Part shown: positions 42,525-43,255 of the stretch, one piece after another
How the letters are laid out: each line of letters begins with the position of its first letter
Numbering within the stretch: position 1 is the first letter of the stretch
Source: a virus
IMG/VR virus record: IMGVR_UViG_3300025109_000013
Location: 1-47,895 of that record
Direction: 5' to 3' (one strand)
Length of the DNA: 47,895 bases
Program-made: the position numbers and the translations under genes
Notes under the pieces: generated by a model
Databases searched by the model: none
What the model saw: only the letters and a program-made list of their open reading frames with translations
Told to the model about the DNA's origin: nothing

Positions 42525-43255
42525 CCGAACGACGAATCTCAACCAGGACACAGGAGGTGTCAGACCCACGACTACTAAACCACCATCACGACCGTATATC
42601 GGTACGTGCGATTCCAGACGCGTAGCAGCTTGCTACATAGGCATAGAGCCCACTTTGGGCGGTCCTAAGTCCGGCCATGTATGACAACGGGGTAGGGGTC
42701 CGAATGGACTAAGCAACCGGTGAAGCCACGGCTACACCTAAAGCCCACCGCAGGGATGACTCCGCTCGGAGTGTGTCTGCGCCCCATAGTCGCCGATATA
42801 GCCCCCCAGTGCGGGGACTGAAACAGGGTAGGGAAGTCTCAAATAGAGATGGGCCCGTGCGTGATGTAGCATATCATATCCGTTGACACGAGACCTCCGG
42901 GTCCGTGGTACCACTGAGGTCAGGTCAGGTGGCGGGAAGTTTGGGACGCATGGCAAGCGCGGCCCACTCTGTACTAAACTCCCCACGTAGCATACAACTA
43001 CAACGGGCCCTGAAGGGGTGCGGTAGCCATAACGGCGATGAGGCACCGATAGGGACCCAAGGGGCTTTGCTTGCCCTCTTCACCTGCTCAGCAGACGTGA
43101 GAAGGGACGAGTAAGCGAAACGCGAACACGCCGCATAGTCACTACAACGGAGCATAATGCTTGCACGAGGCGCACGAGTAGAAGCAGACATCCCGTTGCA
43201 ACCAGAAAGACTGCGGACGGGTATCGCGTGGGAATAACGACTCCCGCTTACGTCT
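42525..43255 (+). ncRNA. large structured non-coding RNA candidate (about 730 nt)
   Basis: This stretch has no credible gene on either strand but is dense in local hairpins. Examples are: GACAC/GTGTC 42547-42561; CACGACCG/CGGTaCGTG 42587-42608; GTAGCA/TGCTAC 42622-42636; GCCCA/TGGGC 42648-42660; GTCC/GGAC 42698-42709; CGCAG..ACTCC/GGAGT..CTGCG 42749-42781; GTCTC/GAGAT 42836-42850; GACC-TCCG-GGTC (UNCG tetraloop) 42892-42903; TGGG.CGC/GCG.CCCA 42942-42966; GGTGC.GCC/GGC.GCACC 43017-43047; AAGGGGC/GCCCtCTT 43059-43080; CACCTGC/GCAGacGTG 43081-43099; CCCGTTGCA/TGCgGACGGG 43192-43221. CCCACG (42565-42570) could pair with CGTGGG (43227-43232) to close the whole RNA. Size, position after P2 and lack of ORFs resemble phage giant RNAs such as GOLLD and ROOL, but I cannot show homology. 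Confidence 0.65.

Follow-up and report, generated by a model that had tools for sequence, protein, structure and literature searches.

Does the roughly 730-nt stretch at positions 42525-43255 of an uncultured-virus record (IMGVR_UViG_3300025109_000013; 47,895 bases, here called the window) give rise to a giant folded RNA, or does it serve the genes beside it in another way? The window has neither end repeats nor a direct terminal repeat. Late genes, among them those for terminase, head and lysis, occupy a leftward arm that begins at about 42.0 kb and ends at 13.4 kb. The rightward arm starts at 43,273, resumes at about 0.9 kb and continues to 13.4 kb; it encodes an SNF2-type helicase, a PD-(D/E)XK nuclease and a primase/helicase. 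Cumulative GC skew is lowest at 42146 and highest at 13505, the divergent and convergent points of these arms, and the region under study lies in the gap where the late and early arms diverge. The initial annotation had described it as densely folded and probably a giant phage RNA, either a divergent member of the GOLLD or ROOL class or a new class, made from a sigma-54 promoter.

Relatives were sought in the viral collection with the terminase (as a single protein and as an alignment), the 111-aa product of the first early gene (alone and as an alignment), a 128-aa early protein, the 17-mer described below, a UNCG-degenerate version of it, and a motif from a second non-coding element. The terminase searches yielded five close viral contigs, only one of which extends into the gap: IMGVR_UViG_3300007963_000040 (L004), with a terminase 83% identical. 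It was the only other phage with a syntenic gap in these scans; a scan of GTDB genomes with the terminase gave no matches, and a blastn search of 50,697 phage records with the gap sequence gave none either. The L004 gap measures about 1.1 kb and is likewise flanked by a late-arm gene and, at its other end, by the orthologue of the 111-aa protein. Comparison with the L004 counterpart of the leftward ORF 41618-42145 places the most likely start of this ORF near 42,028, and the whole gap in the window is therefore about 1.2 kb long. The features of the gap and its right-hand border are as follows:

42225-42244, no strand assigned: palindrome-containing site GGGTGTTAGACACACATATT, 18 of 20 positions common to L004
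42304-42319, + strand: sigma-54 promoter 1, TGGCACGGATCTTGCA, exact consensus
42356-42373, no strand assigned: operator/UAS-like palindrome 1, TGCGAAAACTTTTTCACA
42376-42393, no strand assigned: operator/UAS-like palindrome 2, TGCGTAAAACTTTTCGCA
42438-42455, no strand assigned: operator/UAS-like palindrome 3, TGTGAAAAGTTTTACACA
42499-42514, + strand: sigma-54 promoter 2, TGGCACGGGTCCTGCA, exact consensus
42525-43255, + strand: ORF-less region under study, putative leader
42891-42907, + strand: 17-nt element AGACCTCCGGGTCCGTG, with an identical copy at 2653-2637 (minus strand) in the syntenic L004 gap
43079-43101, + strand: upstream arm of the strongest inverted repeat of the putative leader (20 of 23 pairs, including one G-U)
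43247-43269, + strand: downstream arm, covering the Shine-Dalgarno sequence
43259-43267, + strand: Shine-Dalgarno sequence AAGGAGGTG of the first early gene
43273-43608, + strand: first early gene, 111 aa, orthologue in L004 with 39% identity

The region is non-coding, as the initial annotation had stated. Codon-usage scores in the six frames (-0.20 to -0.30, vs +0.16 to +0.31 in true genes) resemble those of the wrong frames of real genes, and the longest stop-free run of 113 aa is at chance level, being equalled in 51% of shuffles. Comparison of stop-to-stop segments with L004 gave no convincing counterpart beyond the 17-mer. The G+C content of 57-58% is above that of most flanking sequence, the gap has no tandem repeats, and the sole tRNA of the window, a tRNA-Leu at 582-666, is distant. 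Neither the 111-aa early protein nor its neighbours had an informative Pfam match.

Folding energy supplies no support for a giant folded RNA. Against 150 dinucleotide shuffles, the minimum free energy of 42525-43255 had a z of -1.22 on the + strand (14 of the shuffles were equally stable) and -1.87 on the - strand, both within the scatter of coding DNA from the same phage (12 other 731-nt windows, both strands; mean z -0.89, sd 1.51); the description as densely folded is not sustained. The L004 counterpart scored -1.14 and -1.01. The criterion is itself weak because the gap of the Vibrio phage ICP1 that holds a known RNA of about 800 nt reached only -2.0/-2.7 in the same test. The many hairpins on which the initial annotation was built are real as strings, although no more than a sequence of 57% G+C yields; the long-range closing helix that it proposed (42565-42570 with 43227-43232) exists as a 6-bp complement of a kind expected many times in 730 nt, and the GGGCCC segments that it listed are present at 42851-42856 and 43005-43010. 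Among the sampled coding windows, the strongest excess folding was found at 31800-32530 (z -4.5 and -5.1).

Known families gave no match. A whole-Rfam scan found nothing in the region at gathering score, its single family match being the distant tRNA, and no credible match at E up to 5. The covariance models of GOLLD (RF02032) and ROOL (RF03087) had no matches at E<=10 in the window or in the L004 genome; the control genomes contained no positive for ROOL. The region resembles these two classes in being phage-borne and in size range, and differs from them in lacking a covariance-model match, a tRNA neighbourhood and evidence of covariation. GOLLD is usually, though not universally, located near phage tRNA genes.

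Outside the 17-mer, the leaders of the two phages are similar only at chance level (sequence-only z 0.5; identity equalled by 2-5 of 40 realigned shuffles). A purpose-written simultaneous fold-and-align of the region and L004 gave z values of 0.8, 0.1 and -0.15 with low power (control z 1.7-2.2), and RNAalifold against realigned dinucleotide-shuffled controls gave z -0.2 to -0.6, with no structure shared with this one homologue. RNAalifold on a MAFFT alignment had given z -3.0 against column shuffles; this result was discarded since the signal was gone with realigned shuffled controls. Comparison with one homologue thus leaves a common structure without support and does not disprove it. As far as that homologue allows, no covariation was seen and folding energy did not stand out, two outcomes that the initial annotation had named as speaking against its giant RNA; the third, a conserved protein frame, did not appear. 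With Rfam negative as well, its assignment to GOLLD, ROOL or another giant ornate RNA is not upheld.

The only clearly conserved stretch inside the putative leader is the 17-nt element, and by our own calculation two such spacers would have some 17-mer in common by chance about 3 times in 100,000. The UNCG tetraloop noted in the initial annotation can be written here as a GACC-UCCG-GGUC hairpin; its pairing probability is about 0.04 in the window, where another pairing is preferred, vs 0.62 in L004, and local folding around the 17-mer showed no stability signal. Because the window disfavours this hairpin, what is conserved in the 17-mer may be a binding site and not a hairpin. Most of the other occurrences of the 17-mer fall within long open frames of unrelated phages or within a hairpin resembling a terminator. 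Further upstream, GGGTGTYAGACACANATATT (42225) is common to both phages at a similar spacing to the 17-mer (666 bp here, about 664 bp in L004), and the site 42225-42244 is unique in the window with three mismatches allowed.

The promoter claim held, in that both sigma-54 sites match the TGGCACG-N4-YTGCW core exactly, have GG/GC at -24/-12 and point right; with one mismatch allowed, chance would give about one site in the whole window. Transcription from a sigma-54 promoter is probable, and for promoter 2 the usual -12 spacing leads us to infer an RNA start near 42525. Between the promoters lie three related 18-bp palindromes that are absent elsewhere in the window at 0-1 mismatch. The arrangement is like that of sigma-54 (RpoN) promoters with upstream activator palindromes in its exact TGGCACG-N4-YTGCA cores and in having palindromes 44-143 bp ahead of promoter 2, where an enhancer-binding protein usually binds, and differs in belonging to the early control region of a phage. 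Scans of 32 window proteins against Pfam and/or PHROGs recognised no sigma-54 activator. Ahead of the matching leader in L004 there is no conserved sigma-54 site, the best candidate agreeing at 7 of 13 positions. On the + strand, no terminator-like site was found from the promoters to the gene at 43273. The control gap of L004 contains a near-perfect Fur-box-like 19-mer, GATAATGATAATCATTTTC (about 3262-3244, minus strand), not seen in the gap of the window.

At the downstream end, the inverted repeat 43079-43101/43247-43269 scores 13.0, vs a maximum of 11.5 across 60 shuffles, and in the predicted fold most of the Shine-Dalgarno sequence is paired with a probability near 1. Masking of this strength is not exceptional overall, as it was reached by 8 of 40 shuffled leaders. 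The helix is absent from L004, where the Shine-Dalgarno sequence is partly covered by a different, weaker pairing with the 5' end of the RNA. Since shuffles match the masking and the L004 pairing differs, a switch acting through this helix is put forward as a hypothesis only. The predicted fold is like 5' leaders that mask ribosome-binding sites in having a long-range helix over the Shine-Dalgarno sequence of the downstream gene, and unlike them in that the helix is not conserved in L004.

A better candidate for a structured RNA than 42525-43255 lies nearby. A sigma-54 core with one mismatch at 44291, exact in L004 (2028-2013), precedes a second non-coding stretch at about 44310-44640; promoter and stretch together (44291-44640) correspond to 2028-1660, minus strand, in L004. 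Over a 124-nt core (44386-44505) the two phages share 70% identity; the spacing from promoter to block is about 93 nt in both phages. Tandem hairpins around AGGTTAAA / CAGGTTTAACCTG show compensatory changes, and the consensus hairpin of 32 pairs has zero broken pairs and three two-sided changes. Its alifold energy beats 300 of 300 column shuffles (z -4.0), a null that was too lenient for the first region. The fold z is about -5 for the L004 version and only -1.3 to -1.9 for that of the window, and the element has no Rfam match. Elsewhere in the window, a perfect 13-bp hairpin with a 4-nt loop stands between late genes at 31392-31421 (ACUGUGGGGCCA...UGGCCCCACAGU), reading leftward toward CCCCCCACUUUUU; the palindrome is conserved in L004 and is probably a terminator or processing site. 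A tandem 21-bp repeat, GGGTTTACTACTACTACACTT, at 45294-45335 would read as a tyrosine-rich peptide.

Since neither folding energy nor the sole relative supports a giant folded RNA, we read the region as a long untranslated 5' leader with a promoter/operator block, serving the rightward early operon and lying between the divergent arms, and hold this to be slightly better than an even bet. What stands of the original interpretation is a non-coding, probably sigma-54-transcribed phage region of about 730 nt, without the giant ornate RNA class. A host or unrecognised phage enhancer-binding protein at the palindromes would switch on sigma-54 RNA polymerase, which would begin the RNA near 42525; the leader would control how the early transcript is translated or processed. 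In this phage the leader helix would hide the ribosome-binding site, and the 17-nt element would be bound by a protein or by another RNA. The reading is favoured by codon usage and ORF length, the identity of the 17-mer in an otherwise unalignable spacer, two exact same-strand sigma-54 sites with unique palindromes in one 1.2-kb gap, the inverted repeat above shuffles, a + strand free of terminators and the orthologous gene directly downstream in L004. Against it stand the sigma-54 site and masking repeat that L004 lacks, the shuffled leaders that equal the masking, and the failure to recognise an activator among the window proteins scanned.

It is unlikely that the region yields a free-standing long non-coding RNA belonging to a new class that evolves fast, with the sigma-54 promoter as its source, an end formed by cleavage or termination ahead of 43273, and a role as a structured molecule or a decoy. 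Such an RNA would be comparable to that of ICP1, whose most abundant transcript by experiment is the RNA of about 800 nt between gp139 and gp140 (PMC7567579). Both phages have an ORF-less space of about 1 kb, a similar length, no adjacent tRNA and no Rfam family at gathering score; the ICP1 transcript was shown experimentally, whereas that of the present region is predicted, and the fold z here is -1.2/-1.9 vs -2.0/-2.7 for the ICP1 gap. The size, the ORF-less gap, the promoter at the 5' edge, the elevated G+C content and the retention in L004 of a gap of about 1.1 kb with an invariant 17-mer would suit such an RNA, but fold energy is unremarkable, structure shared with L004 does not exceed shuffled controls, neither a terminator nor a nearby tRNA is present, and all sequence but the 17-mer has diverged to chance despite 83% terminase identity, while the nearby non-coding element is 70% identical. 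A slimmer chance still attaches to the bolder idea that an activator-dependent sigma-54 promoter drives a large phage RNA of a new class with fluid sequence. The sole invariant part of this RNA, the 17-nt ACCUCC-containing element, might be an anti-Shine-Dalgarno-like seed or a protein-binding site, and the RNA would link early expression to a nutrient or stress signal of the host.

The region could instead act as DNA, as a replication origin or packaging site at which palindromes and 17-mer bind proteins and transcription is incidental; we hold this to be unlikely, slightly more so than a free-standing RNA. The GC-skew minimum at the arm switch fits an origin but is confounded by gene direction, and the TTTTNCACA halves within the palindromes resemble relaxed DnaA boxes, although such boxes occur in the window at chance frequency (4 vs 3.2 expected). 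Short conserved islands do cluster in the diverged spacer, but the gap is without tandem repeats. It is very improbable that the - strand holds small genes that escaped detection and that the 17-mer is kept for an antisense Shine-Dalgarno sequence (GGAGGT): L004 has an antisense GGAGGT-N7-ATG, with a 70-aa ORF starting 7 nt after the GGAGGT, but the matching frame in the window spans only 16 aa, the products are dissimilar beyond the 17-mer itself, and codon usage is non-coding.

The locus illustrates that hairpin counting in a spacer of 57% G+C is insufficient to establish a structured RNA. A single search of a collection of papers for phages with sigma-54-dependent early genes brought up none, and to our knowledge early genes under an activator-dependent sigma-54 promoter are unusual in phages. 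If the leader is a discrete RNA, it would join the short list of long phage RNAs with unknown function; if the promoters work, the early genes of this phage would be under an activator-dependent sigma-54 promoter, and infection would be tied to the signalling state of the host.
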